DNA of 10,893 bases from assembly GCA_021828935.1 (NCBI GenBank), contig JAJZCU010000031.1, positions 1 through 10,893 on the forward strand, given 5' to 3'. A program made the position numbers and the translations under genes. The first letter of the stretch is position 1. The number at the start of each line of letters is the position of its first letter. Below, piece after piece: positions 1,339 to 9,702 of this stretch. Source of the DNA: Planctomycetota bacterium (GTDB taxonomy: Bacteria; Planctomycetota; Phycisphaerae; WQYP01). The notes below the pieces were generated by a model. It had not been told where the DNA came from. It saw only the letters and a list, made by a program, of their open reading frames with translations, and searched no databases.

Positions 1339-2760
1339 GTGCTCAGACAGCTTAGACTCAAAAACTTCAAGGGCTGGCGGGATACCGCGCCCGTCCGGAT
1401 GGCGCCGTTGACAATTTTTTTCGGCACGAACAGCTCCGGTAAAAGCAGCATTGAGCAATTTTTGTTAATGCTTAAGCAGACGGTAAACTCCTCGGACCGT
1501 AAGATGGTTCTGTACCCGGGCGATGCAAACACGCCGGTCAATCTTGGGTCATTCACGGACCTTATCTATGGGCACGATGTTAGGAACAAGCTTGAGTTCA
1601 GTTTGCTGTGGGAGTTGACGCCGCCGTTGGAAGTTTCCGACCGGCGTTCGAACCTAAACGTTTCCGGCGACCAGTTGGAATTTTCGGCAAGTATTTCAGG
1701 GGGAAACGCAAAGTATCCTTACCCGTTTTTGTACGACTTCCGATATCGGCTCCTTATGAATGCGGCCGAGGAAATGCGTGTCGGCATTGAAAGGAACGAG
1801 GCGCCGGCCGGCGTTCAATACGATCTCAAGGCCAGCCCCTATAAGCTTGTCCGCCATAAAATGCGAGCTTGGTCACTGGGCTTTCCCAGAAAATTCTACG
1901 GCTTTCCCGACGAGGTTTCCGTCTATTACCAGAATGCCGACTTCGTGCAGGATTTCAGTCTGGAAATGGAGCGGCTGCTGCAATCCATAAGCCACATAGG
2001 CCCGCTACGATCCAAGGCCGAGCGGCTCTATTCCTGGTCCGGCGGCGAGCCGGAGGATGTCGGGTATGCAGGTGAAAAAACCATCGGCGCCCTGCTGGCC
2101 GCCAAAGGCCGCCGTTTGGGAGCCGGAAAGGGCAAAAGAAGCAAGTCGCTTCAAGAGCTCGTGGCCGCCAAGCTGCAACAGCTTGAGCTAATCGACGCAT
2201 TTGATGTGAAGGAAATTTCAAAGAATAGAAACGAATTTGAGGTGAAGGTTAAAACTGGCGGCTCGGCTTCATGGGTTGATCTGCCGGATGTGGGCTTCGG
2301 CGTATCGCAGGTGCTGCCGGTCATCGTGCAATGTTATTATGCGCAGCCACGGTCCATTTTATTCATTGAGCAGCCCGAACTACATCTGCATCCACGCGCC
2401 CAGGCCCATCTCGCTGATTTATTTATTGATGTGTTATCGTCCCGGGAAAATGGCGAGGCACGAAACATTCAACTAATTGTGGAAACGCATTCAGAGCATT
2501 TTCTTCATCGGCTGCAGCGGCGCATTGCCGAAAGCTCCTCGGAGCATCCCATCGTTTCCAGCCAGGTCGCTGGATACTTCGCCCGCCACGCCGACGGGGA
2601 ATCACGCCTTGATCCCTTGCAATTTGACGCCTATGGCGCCATTTGCAATTGGCCGACCAATTTTTTTGGCGACACCATGGGGGATCTCCGCGAGATGTCC
2701 AAAGCCGGCGTGCTTCGGAGGTCCGCGCAGCGACCGCAGGGCGCGGGGACTGGCCCATGA
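1339..2760 (+). CDS. AAA/ABC-type ATPase with C-terminal DUF3696-like region
   Basis: This 473-residue protein starts with GTG at 1339, placed by GAGG at 1328-1331 with a seven-base gap. The N-terminus (LRLKNFKGW) is the usual opening of SMC/RecF/OLD-like ATPases. Walker A is GTNSSGKSS at residues 29-37, with Lys35. An ABC-signature-like GFGVSQ lies at 319-324. Walker B is ILFIEQPELHLHP at 340-352, with the catalytic Glu near 344-347. A switch histidine follows in VETHSEHF (381-388). The C-terminus, with CNWPTNFFGD near 436-445, matches what I know of DUF3696. Such ATPases usually act as sensors or motors for a partner enzyme. The next gene overlaps this stop by ATGA, so the PIN-like protein is the likely partner. 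What it senses cannot be read from the sequence. Confidence 0.9.
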   Translation: MLRQLRLKNFKGWRDTAPVRMAPLTIFFGTNSSGKSSIEQFLLMLKQTVNSSDRKMVLYPGDANTPVNLGSFTDLIYGHDVRNKLEFSLLWELTPPLEVSDRRSNLNVSGDQLEFSASISGGNAKYPYPFLYDFRYRLLMNAAEEMRVGIERNEAPAGVQYDLKASPYKLVRHKMRAWSLGFPRKFYGFPDEVSVYYQNADFVQDFSLEMERLLQSISHIGPLRSKAERLYSWSGGEPEDVGYAGEKTIGALLAAKGRRLGAGKGKRSKSLQELVAAKLQQLELIDAFDVKEISKNRNEFEVKVKTGGSASWVDLPDVGFGVSQVLPVIVQCYYAQPRSILFIEQPELHLHPRAQAHLADLFIDVLSSRENGEARNIQLIVETHSEHFLHRLQRRIAESSSEHPIVSSQVAGYFARHADGESRLDPLQFDAYGAICNWPTNFFGDTMGDLREMSKAGVLRRSAQRPQGAGTGP

Positions 2761-3287
2761 GCGCCGTTGTGATTGACACCAATGTTCTTCTCATTGCGGA
2801 CGGCAAAGCCGCGCAAATGAGCGCCCATTGCCAGATTGAATGCATGGATCGTTTGGACCATGTGAAAGTATCCGAGCAGGTGGCGCTGGACGAAAGTTGG
2901 CTCATACTTGAAGAGTATTCAAATAAATTAGCGCCGAATCAGTCGCAAACTTTTGGCAGCGCTTTCTTGAAATGGCTGCTTCAGGTTCAAGGTGATCCGG
3001 ACCACACAACATGGGTGAAAATTACCCCAACAAACAATGAATGCACGCAATTTAGGGAATTTCCGAATGATCCCGGGCTCAAGGCTGATTTTGACCCGGC
3101 GGACCGCAAATTTGTTGCAGTTGCGAACGCCCATCCAGAAAAACCGCCCATCATTGAGGCGGGAGACAGCAAGTGGCTGGCGTGGCGGGATCGCCTTTCG
3201 AAGCATGGCATACAACTGGATTTGCTTTGCCATGCCGAGCTGCAAGCGATTCACAAAAAAAAGCAGAAGAAAAAGCGGAAATCATGA
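2757..3287 (+). CDS. PIN-fold nuclease candidate, second gene of the ATPase/RNA-ligase operon
   Basis: The ATG at 2757 overlaps the ATPase stop as ATGA, which signals translational coupling. The 176-residue product has the expected order of PIN-domain acidic residues. Asp7 is in VVIDTNVLL (motif I). Glu46, Glu52 or Glu53 lies in ESWLILEEY. Asp113/Asp116 lie in FDPADRKFVAVA (motif III). Asp137 is in IIEAGDSKW (motif IV). PIN proteins such as VapC are metal-dependent ribonucleases, and these four positions build the metal site. At 176 residues it is longer than a typical VapC, with an insert between motifs II and III. The C-terminus is a lysine-rich tail (HKKKQKKKRKS) that may bind RNA. No VapB-type antitoxin gene is adjacent, so control may come from the ATPase. 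The assignment rests on motifs, not on alignment. Confidence 0.8.
   Translation: MSAVVIDTNVLLIADGKAAQMSAHCQIECMDRLDHVKVSEQVALDESWLILEEYSNKLAPNQSQTFGSAFLKWLLQVQGDPDHTTWVKITPTNNECTQFREFPNDPGLKADFDPADRKFVAVANAHPEKPPIIEAGDSKWLAWRDRLSKHGIQLDLLCHAELQAIHKKKQKKKRKS
3257..3263 (+). other. Candidate -1 slippery heptamer A AAA AAG at the PIN/ligase junction
   Basis: An A8 run at 3255-3262 ends the PIN gene. In the PIN frame the codons are CAC AAA AAA AAG, so A AAA AAG sits in the phase required for tandem -1 slippage; E. coli dnaX uses the same heptamer. The -1 frame is the RNA ligase frame. It has no stop between 3173 and 3962, so slippage would yield a PIN-ligase fusion joined by an Ala/Glu/Lys linker. 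A-run transcript slippage could do the same. I see no strong downstream hairpin, and the heptamer may simply reflect lysine codons. Confidence 0.35.
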
Positions 3288-3964
3288 GCGGCAGCTTTAT
3301 CAAATTTCCAAGCACGCCGCACCTGGCCTGGCTGGGGGCGCATCCGGCGCGGTCGGACAAGGTGCTTGGCGAGGCGGAAGCAGCCGAGTTTCTTGCGCAG
3401 CCGGTGGTGGTTGAGGAAAAGGTGGACGGCGCAAATGTCGGTATTTCATTCGACTCCAACGGCCACATGATCGTTCAGAACCGGGGAAGCGTATTGAAGC
3501 CCGGCGACGGCGGGCAGTTCGCTTTGTTATGGAAATGGCTGGCGGAAAGAGAGGGCCGGCTGCTTGATGTTCTGGAAGACAGGCTTTTTTTGTTTGGCGA
3601 GTGGTGTTACGCCCGCCATAGCATTCATTACACCCGCCTGCCGGATTATTTTTTAATGTTTGACATATTTGACAAGCATGCGGGGAAATTTTTGAACAGC
3701 ATGCGACGGGACCGCATCGCCGCTGAGCTGGCTTTGACCACGGTTCCGCGTATTGCCGCTGGTTTATTAACCATGGCGAGCGTAACGAGCCTTATCGGAT
3801 CCTCAAGCCTGTATGACGGGCCGATGGAGGGCGTGTACTTGCGGCGGGACGATGATTGCTGGCTGCTTAAACGGGCCAAGATTGTCCGTGCTGAATTTGT
3901 ACAGAACCTCGAAGAACACTGGTCGAAAAAGACGCCGGTAGCGAATCAGTTGGCGCGGAAGTAG
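3284..3964 (+). CDS. ATP-dependent RNA ligase family protein, third gene of the operon
   Basis: The ATG at 3284 overlaps the preceding TGA as ATGA. The frame is open further upstream to 3173, but the overlap and the family-like N-terminus (FIKFPSTPHLAWLG) support 3284. The 226-residue product shows the nucleotidyltransferase motifs in order: VVEEKVDGANVGI (motif I, with nucleophile Lys46), FLFGEWCYARHSIHY (motif III, Glu106), YFLMFDIFD (IIIa), PMEGVYLRR (motif IV, Glu182) and KRAKIVR (motif V, Lys199). The C-terminal HWSKKTPVANQL is typical of a bacterial Rnl2-like ligase family. The predicted reaction is adenylation of Lys46 by ATP, transfer of AMP to an RNA 5'-phosphate, then sealing to a 3'-OH. 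No end-healing kinase/phosphatase gene lies nearby. Candidate substrates are the products of the neighbouring PIN nuclease. Confidence 0.88.
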   Translation: MSGSFIKFPSTPHLAWLGAHPARSDKVLGEAEAAEFLAQPVVVEEKVDGANVGISFDSNGHMIVQNRGSVLKPGDGGQFALLWKWLAEREGRLLDVLEDRLFLFGEWCYARHSIHYTRLPDYFLMFDIFDKHAGKFLNSMRRDRIAAELALTTVPRIAAGLLTMASVTSLIGSSSLYDGPMEGVYLRRDDDCWLLKRAKIVRAEFVQNLEEHWSKKTPVANQLARK

Positions 3965-7272: not shown

Positions 7273-7371
7273 AACCGCGGACCTCCCGCCGTCCCCTATC
7301 CGCGACATCGGGGGGCGCCCTCCGGGCCATCCGCGGTTTAATTATATTGTTACCGAATCGCGGTCTTGCCG
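7273..7371. repeat. Dispersed palindromic repeat, copy A
   Basis: The copy is bounded by AACCGCGGA at 7273-7281 and its inverse TCCGCGGTT at 7330-7338, and continues through a conserved AT-rich tail to 7371. Bases 7329-7371 match copy B (9593-9635) at 42 of 43 positions. An inner block at 7282-7309 matches 9560-9586 with one substitution and one indel. Copy A carries a different, G-rich segment (near 7310-7328) where copy B has the start of its right arm. Both copies have the same orientation. Inverted ends without a coding frame suggest a REP- or MITE-like element. Confidence 0.8.
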
Positions 7372-7427
7372 TCCGCAATAATTGCGTCGCACGGCGCTCG
7401 ATGAACTACCAAAACACGATCATGCGG

Positions 7428-7625: not shown

Positions 7626-7937
7626 ATGAATGTCGCGCCACTGCTTTCGTTTACGACCCCAACGCAAGTCGCTTCGGATTTGGCCGCCCGGGTGCGTAGG
7701 TTGCGTTTGGAGCAACAATGGACCCGGCGAACCTTGGCATTGCGATCGGGAGTATCCATGGGTTCGCTGGAGCGTTTTGAGCGAAGCGGACGGATTTCGC
7801 TGCAGAGTCTACTTAAAATTTCGCACGCTTTGGGGCGCCTTCCTGAGTTTGACCTGCTGTTGCAGCCGCCGCCAGCGGAAAGCATTGAGGCCATGGAACT
7901 ACGCGAACAGCCCCGCCGGCAACGGGGGCGGAAATGA
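7626..7937 (+). CDS. hipB: HipB-like XRE-family antitoxin
   Basis: The 103-residue protein has an XRE/Cro-type helix-turn-helix at about residues 18-75. LAARVRRLRLEQQWTRRTLA is followed by the recognition-helix region RSGVSMGSLERFERSG, then ISLQSLLKISHALG. In the HipBA family the antitoxin binds DNA as a dimer, neutralises the HipA kinase and represses the operon. The C-terminal tail is proline-rich and basic (EQPRRQRGRK), probably flexible. ATG at 7626 is preferred from the helix-turn-helix spacing and the promoter position. The stop overlaps the hipA start as ATGA. The pairing with a recognisable HipA makes the assignment strong, although the family level (HipB) is inferred from context. 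Confidence 0.88.
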   Translation: MNVAPLLSFTTPTQVASDLAARVRRLRLEQQWTRRTLALRSGVSMGSLERFERSGRISLQSLLKISHALGRLPEFDLLLQPPPAESIEAMELREQPRRQRGRK

Positions 7938-9187
7938 AAAAAATTCTGGTACACTTTTCGCGCGGGGGCGCGGCGCCGGAGTCAGTGTCCCCCGACTTGG
8001 TGGTGGGTCAATTAGCTCAGGATCGGAACGGCGTTTATTTTCAGTACAACGCGGAGTTTCTGGCCACCGGTTTCAATCTGTCCCCCATCCGACTGCCGTT
8101 TCAGCGCGGCGTGCATACCCATTCTGATTTGCAATTCGGGCCGTTGCCGGGGCTATTTGATGATTCGCTTCCCGATGGGTGGGGGCGTTTGCTGATGGAC
8201 CGTCACTTTGCGGCTCTGGGGTTGAACCCCGAAAGCCAGAGCCCGCTTGACCGGCTAAGCTGGCTGGCAACCGGAACCATGGGCGCATTGACATACCATC
8301 CGCCATCGGGACGGGAAAGCGCAGCTGACGCCATTTTAAGCTTGCATGATCTCGCCAGGCAGTCAGAACAGGTGCTTTCGGGCCAGGCCCAGGATGTCCT
8401 GCCGGCACTGCTTTGCGCCGGCGGCTCGCCCGGCGGCGCGCGGCCCAAGGTGCTGGTGGGGGTGCGCGGAGACCAACTGCTTTCCGGGGAGGGGGATCTG
8501 CCCGCGGGTTTTGAGCACTGGATCTTAAAATTTTCCGGCGCGGTTGATCAGGCCGACGCTGGGATGGTGGAATATGCTTATATGCAGATGGCGTCGGCAG
8601 CGGGCCTCGTCACGCCGCCCGTACGCCTGTTCAAAGTAAGCCGAACCAGGCGGAAAGCGGAAAACTTCTTCGCCGTTCGGCGCTTTGACCGACGCGGCAA
8701 TCGCCGATTTCATGTTCACACTTTCGGCAATCTGATCCAATCGAATTTCCGCATCCCTTCATGCGATTATCTGCAGTTGTTGCGAACAGCCAGCGTGCTT
8801 ACCGGCCACCATGGGGACGTGCTGGCGGCCTTCCGGCAAATGGTATTCAACGTCCTGGCGCATAACCGCGATGATCATGTCAAAAACTTCGCGTTTCTGT
8901 TTGATGATGTGGCGCGGCAATGGCGGTTGTCTCCAGCCTATGACGTGTCATGGTCCGCCGGACCGGGAGGCGAGCATACCATGACCATTGGCGGCGAAGG
9001 GAGATATCCCGCGATTAAGCATTTCCATTCGTTGGCGGAACAGGCCGGGATTTCACGCCGCGAGGTGGCGGAAATTATCGAACAGGTGCAAGCGGCCATT
9101 GGCCAATGGCCGCGCTGGGCCGATGAGGCGGGCGTCGGCCGCCGGCGCATTAGCGCCATTGCGGCCACTTTTCCGGCCCTCCATTGA
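7934..9187 (+). CDS. hipA: HipA-like serine/threonine kinase toxin
   Basis: HipA kinases phosphorylate a cellular target (glutamyl-tRNA synthetase in E. coli) and stop growth. The 417-residue product is close to the usual length and has both halves. The N-terminal subdomain includes FGPLPGLFDDSLPDGWGRLL at 68-87. The Gly-rich loop is GGSPGGARPK at 163-172, with Ser165 at the position of the regulatory autophosphorylated serine. ATP-binding residues lie in WILKFSG (Lys199) and MVEYAYM (Glu213). The catalytic Asp313 is in NVLAHNRDDHVKNFAF, and the metal-binding Asp337 is in LSPAYDVSW. All key residues are present, so the toxin is probably active. It overlaps hipB by ATGA. The repeat copies on both sides suggest an accessory module. 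Confidence 0.95.
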   Translation: MKKILVHFSRGGAAPESVSPDLVVGQLAQDRNGVYFQYNAEFLATGFNLSPIRLPFQRGVHTHSDLQFGPLPGLFDDSLPDGWGRLLMDRHFAALGLNPESQSPLDRLSWLATGTMGALTYHPPSGRESAADAILSLHDLARQSEQVLSGQAQDVLPALLCAGGSPGGARPKVLVGVRGDQLLSGEGDLPAGFEHWILKFSGAVDQADAGMVEYAYMQMASAAGLVTPPVRLFKVSRTRRKAENFFAVRRFDRRGNRRFHVHTFGNLIQSNFRIPSCDYLQLLRTASVLTGHHGDVLAAFRQMVFNVLAHNRDDHVKNFAFLFDDVARQWRLSPAYDVSWSAGPGGEHTMTIGGEGRYPAIKHFHSLAEQAGISRREVAEIIEQVQAAIGQWPRWADEAGVGRRRISAIAATFPALH

Positions 9188-9514: not shown

Positions 9515-9635
9515 AACCGCGGATGACGCTGATGCGACGAAGTGGACGATGGTGAGCGGCCTCCCGTCGTCCCTATCCGCGACATCCGCGTAATCCGCGG
9601 TTTAATTATATTGATACCGAATCGCGGTCTTGCCG
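9515..9635. repeat. Dispersed palindromic repeat, copy B
   Basis: The ends form a 20-base inverted repeat, with arms at 9515-9534 and 9583-9602 pairing at 18 of 20 positions and outer core AACCGCGGAT/ATCCGCGGTT. The AT-rich tail to 9635 is shared with copy A (42 of 43 bases from 9593). Copy B looks more complete than copy A. No transposase is encoded within, so movement would depend on an enzyme encoded elsewhere. Confidence 0.8.
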
Positions 9636-9702
9636 TGTAATAAAATCGGCCCGGAAAATGCAATGCAAGCGGACGATATGGCCACCCCCCCATTGGGCCT
9701 TT

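Follow-up and report, generated by a model that had tools for sequence, protein, structure and literature searches.

The window analysed here, a 10,893-nucleotide contig (JAJZCU010000031.1) of a Planctomycetota bacterium, carries three genes encoding an ABC/OLD-type ATPase, a PIN-fold nuclease and a small ATP-dependent RNA ligase. We propose, with confidence that is about evenly balanced, that this trio is a ligase-bearing form of the candidate anti-phage system HEC-03, in which an ATPase-gated PIN RNase would be combined with a dedicated RNA-resealing ligase. HECs (Hma-embedded candidates) come from a preprint of 2024; antiviral activity is reported for several of them, HEC-06 among them (PMC12988326). 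The pair of ATPase and PIN is already known as a listed candidate system (HEC-03B and HEC-03A in PADLOC), so that an earlier sequence-only reading of the trio as undescribed fails for two of its three genes. As far as could be seen, the new element is a dedicated, co-diverging RNA ligase with an intact active site as a third gene of HEC-03. The gene structure given in that reading is confirmed: the three genes lie on the same strand, are intact, are joined by two ATGA overlaps and encode ATPase, PIN and ligase motifs with conserved key catalytic residues.

The ATPase matches the PADLOC model HEC-03B with 398.4 bits (E 1.2e-119; residues 1-462 of 473) and contains the Pfam domains AAA_15, AAA_21 and DUF3696. 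Its Walker A residues G34 and K35 and the Walker B region residues E344, Q345, P346, E347, H349, L350 and H351 are kept in 77-79 of 81 rows, the remainder being mostly gaps. Weaker matches were obtained to NsnB (190 bits), AriA (100 bits) and PtuA (30.5 bits). The PIN protein matches HEC-03A with 97.5 bits (E 2e-28; residues 4-160 of 176), and its four acidic residues (Table 1) are present in all 81 rows. VapC toxins are the nearest matches to its predicted fold according to VIA-align, the single comparison on which the fold matches of both PIN and ligase rest. A search of the PDB chains with the single PIN sequence gave no match at E<=10, and a profile search of the PDB gave six matches (E 0.13-0.36), none of them a PIN protein.

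The ligase comprises 226 amino acids and contains the nucleotidyltransferase motifs I, III, IIIa, IV and V. Its model is a bare nucleotidyltransferase core from which any accessory N- or C-terminal domain is absent; the predicted fold is nearest to those of nick-sealing RNA ligases and aligns only to residues 139-338 of the Naegleria gruberi (N. gruberi) enzyme chain. K46 and nine further residues are invariant in 63 of 63 rows, and K46, the FGE motif and the motif IV/V residues are kept in 61-63 of them. For nine pairs, the ratio of nonsynonymous to synonymous substitution rates lies in the range 0.05-0.32; the frames counted run from stop to stop and so take in part of the overlap with PIN. 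The ligase scores 19.8 bits against TIGR01209 (Rnl3), the cut-off of which is 136.9, and matches none of the 5027 PADLOC models at E<=1. In PADLOC, the ATPase and PIN are thus already listed and the ligase is not. The protein adds a new compact subfamily of RNA ligases.

Relatives were taken as the best-scoring 80 of 211 confirmed PIN relatives from a genome-wide scan, a set that leans towards the window's own branch. The ATPase gene lies directly upstream of PIN in all 80, in the same gene order (the contig start truncates it in a few), and the gap is 30 nt or less in 78 of 79. The ligase gene lies directly downstream of PIN in 62 and is missing in 17, the remaining locus (L035) ending at a contig edge. 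No more than 5 nt separate PIN from the ligase in any of the 58 measurable cases, 40 of which overlap. The 62 ligase-positive loci belong to Pseudomonadota (51), Myxococcota (seven), Planctomycetota (two) and Verrucomicrobiota (two); the other 18 are spread over nine named phyla, one being unplaced, with Chloroflexota the commonest (four). The nearest named relative of the window, L002, is also from Planctomycetota. A plasmid from Rhodococcus bears the whole trio (30% PIN identity), which extends it to Actinomycetota, a fifth phylum. Adjacency of the three genes across distant taxa, as the sequence-only reading had supposed, is thus borne out and is not restricted to one lineage.

HEC-03A was found in three of 246 genomes in a sample of the window's own phylum (one with ligase), in 15 of 398 from Pseudomonadota (11 with ligase) and in 12 of 195 from Myxococcota (11 with ligase). 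When these samples are pooled with a fourth, from Chloroflexota, the ligase accompanies HEC-03A in 23 of 40 genomes, or in 20 of 36 once the centre genomes (G000, G271, G267 and G249), present in the samples by design, are set aside; many of the sampled genomes are incomplete, the source genome of the window being 54% complete. Of 12 plasmid records, seven were examined: six have the trio and one, from Acinetobacter soli, is without the ligase. No DNA-level match to the Aeromonas trio was found in E. coli.

A viral origin was considered and rejected. In 76 of 78 viral ligase loci, the sequence examined contains no match to the ATPase or to PIN at E<=1e-4. None of 35 candidate stretches from IMG/VR was confirmed as containing a PIN relative. 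Two short IMG/VR contigs (L082 and L083), found through a search with the ligase, carry the whole trio according to hidden Markov models, from which it follows that the PIN scan of this database missed divergent PINs; these contigs may be pieces of prophages or plasmids.

Several lines of evidence tie the ligase to this operon. When 28 genomes were searched whole, the 13 ligase-positive ones each had a single A2-type ligase, next to PIN and ATPase, and the assemblies of the 15 ligase-less ones contained no such ligase at any position. Among the 398 Pseudomonadota genomes, with up to seven candidates scored per genome, the ligase was matched in 18; all 11 matches above 250 bits adjoin PIN and ATPase, and the remaining seven genomes have weaker ligases (up to 141 bits) with neither gene beside them. 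Four Pseudomonadota loci (L198-L201) contain ligase frames of 307-347 amino acids that score 164-172 bits on the trio ligase profile and have no adjoining ATPase or PIN. A quick tree of 78 trio ligases with 22 phage and other ligases, which carried a long-branch warning, required two label changes, and a single trio clade was not rejected (approximately unbiased test, p-AU 0.946). Evolutionary distances are correlated between PIN and ligase (r 0.75), ATPase and PIN (0.57) and ATPase and ligase (0.475), each with 0 of 2000 permutations, using 58 of 63 rows after five partial or odd rows had been dropped. Six loci of about 3.1-3.5 kb (L186, L187 and L189 from Pseudomonadota; L296, L298 and L299 from Myxococcota) combine PINs that score 42-64 bits on the A1 profile with ligases at 281-347 bits, indicating that the ligase changes more slowly than PIN; perhaps they represent separate subtypes barely reached by the PADLOC HEC-03A model. 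Two loci with similarly divergent PINs (L188 and L297) have no ligase.

On a tree of ATPase and PIN, 12 of the ligase-less loci are gathered on a single branch and six others, L035 among them, are dispersed over the rest of the tree; seven changes in the presence of the ligase are required over 81 rows (six if L035 and L027 are left uncounted). Frames downstream of PIN were inspected by eye, without a family scan, at 22 ligase-less loci (16 of the 17 above, L027 being omitted, together with L160, L161, L175, L176, L185 and L188; no frame was listed for L037) and on the Acinetobacter soli plasmid; they differ between loci, and no second kind of repair gene recurs. On that plasmid, an HNH endonuclease occupies the third place (L210, 10538-11296).

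Some of the relatives are found in defence contexts. In Halomonas (L054, 1375-16738) the trio stands in a single same-strand row between HmaC-/HmaB-like genes and a HEC-06/Orf5 match with a helicase, an operon that sets two candidate cassettes side by side. In G319 (L224) it likewise lies between HmaC/HmaB-like genes and a helicase. Of three Aeromonas plasmids examined, two carry the trio flanked by AbiE and GASH genes, and the Acinetobacter soli plasmid encodes a helicase, an N-6 methylase, the ATPase (annotated in two pieces), PIN and the HNH protein. Loci with 3 kb or more of upstream sequence were searched with genes from L054 and Acinetobacter. Of 53 such loci that contain the ligase, ten have Hma-like genes upstream on the same strand, no more than 27 bp from the ATPase frame in seven of the ten; of 11 that lack the ligase, none has. 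The 11 control stretches, drawn from nine genomes, gave no match; this control is weak because L054 alone matches among the eight test loci from the control genomes. Taken together, the genomic context indicates that the trio-bearing operon probably has a role in defence. Proximity to other defence genes, a check proposed with the sequence-only reading, is seen in these relatives (Hma-like, AbiE and GASH genes); the window locus itself lies beside housekeeping genes.

The folds and conserved active sites of the predicted proteins make a mechanism plausible in which the ATPase gates the nuclease and the ligase reseals its product. The ABC-type ATPase would restrain or recruit the VapC-like PIN protein until an invader is sensed. 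The released PIN would then cut host RNA, most likely a structured one such as a transfer RNA (tRNA) loop or ribosomal RNA (rRNA), halting translation and phage growth, and the dedicated ligase, of the nick-sealing T4 Rnl2 or N. gruberi Rnl type, would rejoin the RNA that PIN has cut, repairing leaky cuts in healthy cells and making arrest reversible. Rnl2-type ligases require 5'-phosphate and 3'-OH ends, which are the ends that two-metal cleavage by a PIN protein should yield; no end-healing enzyme would therefore be needed, and the operon has neither kinase nor phosphatase among its three genes. We infer the gating by the ATPase, the RNA target and the use of the PIN product as ligase substrate; an ATPase-gated RNase is suggested because ATPase–nuclease defences of the PARIS/Septu type degrade tRNA and VapC-type PINs are RNases, described as Mg/Mn-dependent enzymes that cut tRNA and rRNA loops (PMC13273310). 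That PIN effectors can protect against phage is indicated by DS-3 and DS-5, two recent PIN-based defences described without a ligase (PMC13092281).

A self-repairing, reversible RNA-cutting defence is the best reading of these data, unproven and with about an equal chance of being right or wrong. We are more tentative about its narrower form, reversible immunity within one operon, in which a sensor-gated PIN would cut host RNA and its own ligase would seal exactly that cut. Defences built on nucleases are generally regarded as killing the cell or stalling it permanently, and RNA ligases in the arms race between phages and bacteria are known as phage weapons. Possession of its own RNA-sealing enzyme suggests that the damage done by such a defence can be undone, and with a dedicated ligase in a defence operon it becomes a clear and testable question whether bacteria mend what their own immunity damages. 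If the reversible reading is true, arrest would be a dial and not a death sentence. For defence-finding tools, the ligase is a third gene to seek beside HEC-03.

Other roles for the ligase have to be weighed against resealing. It might be a trigger or a part of the attack, joining or adenylylating phage or host RNA ends as a signal or a block to repair, to which PIN and ATPase respond. The kept catalytic motifs and the modelled bare core without an extra domain would suit this role, as would the ligase-less branch, which suggests that PIN and ATPase are self-sufficient and that a third gene could broaden sensing. However, we know of no defence in which a ligase is the trigger, and both the gene order, in which the ligase begins at or within the end of PIN, and the higher distance correlation of the ligase with PIN than with the ATPase tie it to the nuclease more than to the sensor. 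Such a role is unlikely. Still less probable is a type II-like antitoxin that binds or AMPylates PIN directly and has no role in RNA sealing. A PIN toxin of the VapC group is normally encoded next to its antitoxin, no gene beyond these three takes part in the overlaps, and the overlap of PIN and ligase would suit a toxin–antitoxin pair; yet a pure antitoxin would not need the conserved K46, FGE and motif IV/V residues, and ligase-less members keep the acidic residues of PIN intact.

Two more readings were weighed. A non-defence RNA-processing pair, comparable to HARP (a protein-only RNase P) and the archaeal Rnl3 ligase, has a similarly small chance. The trio is rare and found on plasmids, which speaks against a housekeeping operon, in agreement with the sequence-only reading. 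A passenger ligase, merely carried with HEC-03 and resealing RNA cut by other nucleases (of phages or of neighbouring defences), would have a parallel in the phage T4 RNA ligases that repair defence-cut tRNA (PMC12409363), but the high-scoring ligase subfamily occurs only beside HEC-03 genes where tested, and the ligase directly follows PIN and diverges along with it. This role, too, is given little probability.

Several observations weigh against a ligase-based, reversible defence. The ligase is not obligatory, being absent from 17 of the 80 relatives, where there is room to judge, from all ten genomes with HEC-03A among 251 sampled from Chloroflexota, and from the Pseudomonadota sample members nearest to the PADLOC HEC-03A model (L175 and L176); in the 17 relatives and in Chloroflexota, ATPase and PIN must therefore work without it. 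Rnl2-type ligases are unable to seal 5'-OH ends without a kinase, and one paper takes VapC products to be 5'-OH-ended (PMC6459853). As to the context, an Hma-like gene is lacking upstream of 43 of the 53 ligase-positive loci. Of the ten with such a gene, one is L054, from which queries were taken, and three are its close relatives of Halomonas type; in three of the ten the match is a methylase at a distance of 2-3 kb. Among the eight test loci in the control genomes, L054 alone matches. A PADLOC scan of the flanks of nine loci and of nine control stretches gave a modest contrast, with 86 families for 98 flank proteins versus 59 for 136 control proteins, the commonest control matches being UvrD-type helicases. 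The window locus adjoins downstream genes for serine hydroxymethyltransferase and a pyridoxal-phosphate-dependent enzyme and not a defence island. Full-text literature searches gave no phage assay of the trio among the matches listed.

The features of the window operon are collected in Table 1. Inspection of the open frames showed no additional gene between or overlapping the three, and the nine window proteins scanned (operon and neighbours) include no Hma genes, so that the window copy is not Hma-embedded. The window had no Rfam match at the gathering score. A hipB/hipA-like toxin–antitoxin pair (HTH_3, HipA_C) lies at 7626-9187, 3.7 kb beyond the operon, and is flanked by a 58-nt direct repeat (7315-7372 and 9579-9636; 90% identical), the 39-nt core of which occurs at these two sites only in the 54%-complete source genome; the repeats may mark an inserted element.

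Table 1. Features of the operon in the window.
Feature	Position	Strand	Basis or remark
ABC/OLD-type AAA ATPase with C-terminal DUF3696 (HEC-03B; putative sensor/gate)	1339..2760	+	PADLOC, Pfam, conserved motifs
PIN-fold nuclease (HEC-03A; putative RNase effector)	2757..3287	+	Acidic D7/E53/D116/D137, basic C-terminal tail
Minimal Rnl2/Rnl5-like ATP-dependent RNA ligase	3284..3964	+	Nucleotidyltransferase core only; catalytic K46 in EEKVDGAN
ATGA overlap, ATPase stop/PIN start	2757..2760	+	Identical 4-base overlap in 25 of 79 relatives measured
ATGA overlap, PIN stop/ligase start	3284..3287	+	Identical 4-base overlap in 26 of 58 relatives measured

Among known systems, the operon resembles HEC-03 in the almost full-length matches of its ATPase and PIN, in the order of these genes, common to all 80 relatives, and in the placement of relatives among Hma-like genes (Halomonas) or beside a helicase and an N-6 methylase (Acinetobacter soli). 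It differs in its ligase, for which PADLOC has no model, and in the score of its PIN, 97.5 bits compared with 251 bits for the Pseudomonadota sample member nearest to the HEC-03A model. Embedding among Hma genes is taken here as the way in which the HEC-03 candidate was found and not as a required part. HEC-03, with PADLOC, is a list entry in one rumen survey (PMC13356809). An ATPase–PIN–ligase defence operon is undescribed among the matches listed in the full-text literature searched, which does not cover the defining preprint (10.1101/2024.01.29.577857).

PARIS and the PtuA–PtuB pair of Septu/Retron systems likewise place an ABC/OLD-type ATPase beside a nuclease, and the window ATPase has weaker matches to AriA and PtuA. 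Their effectors AriB and PtuB, paired with such ATPases, degrade tRNA (PMC12409363). The window effector, in contrast, is a VapC-like PIN and not a Toprim or HNH protein (the Toprim protein AriB of PARIS is absent, the second window gene encoding PIN), and a host RNA ligase is added. The match of the ATPase to NsnB recalls Menshen (NsnA–NsnB–NsnC), of which we take NsnB to be a component. The partners in Menshen are a DUF262 protein and a predicted OLD nuclease (PMC10952713), but neither of them is among the nine window proteins scanned with Pfam. VapBC modules share the PIN fold, the four acidic residues and the best fold matches; here, however, no small antitoxin gene lies beside PIN, and the overlapping neighbours are the ATPase and the ligase.

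In the case of HARP, a PIN-superfamily RNase is genetically linked to the ATP-dependent RNA ligase Rnl3 (PMC12153264), a likeness to the trio, but no ATPase is reported for that pair, its genes are mostly not in tandem and its ligase is of another type (Rnl3; PF18330/TIGR01209). Cleavage of RNA by a defence nuclease and resealing by a ligase are combined in PrrC and phage T4, where Pnk/Rnl1 reseals the RNA cut by PrrC (PMC12409363). In T4 the ligase is the phage's own and overcomes the defence, whereas the trio ligase lies within the defence operon; under the reversible-immunity reading, the relation between Rnl1 and PrrC would be mirrored, the ligase now being on the side of the host.

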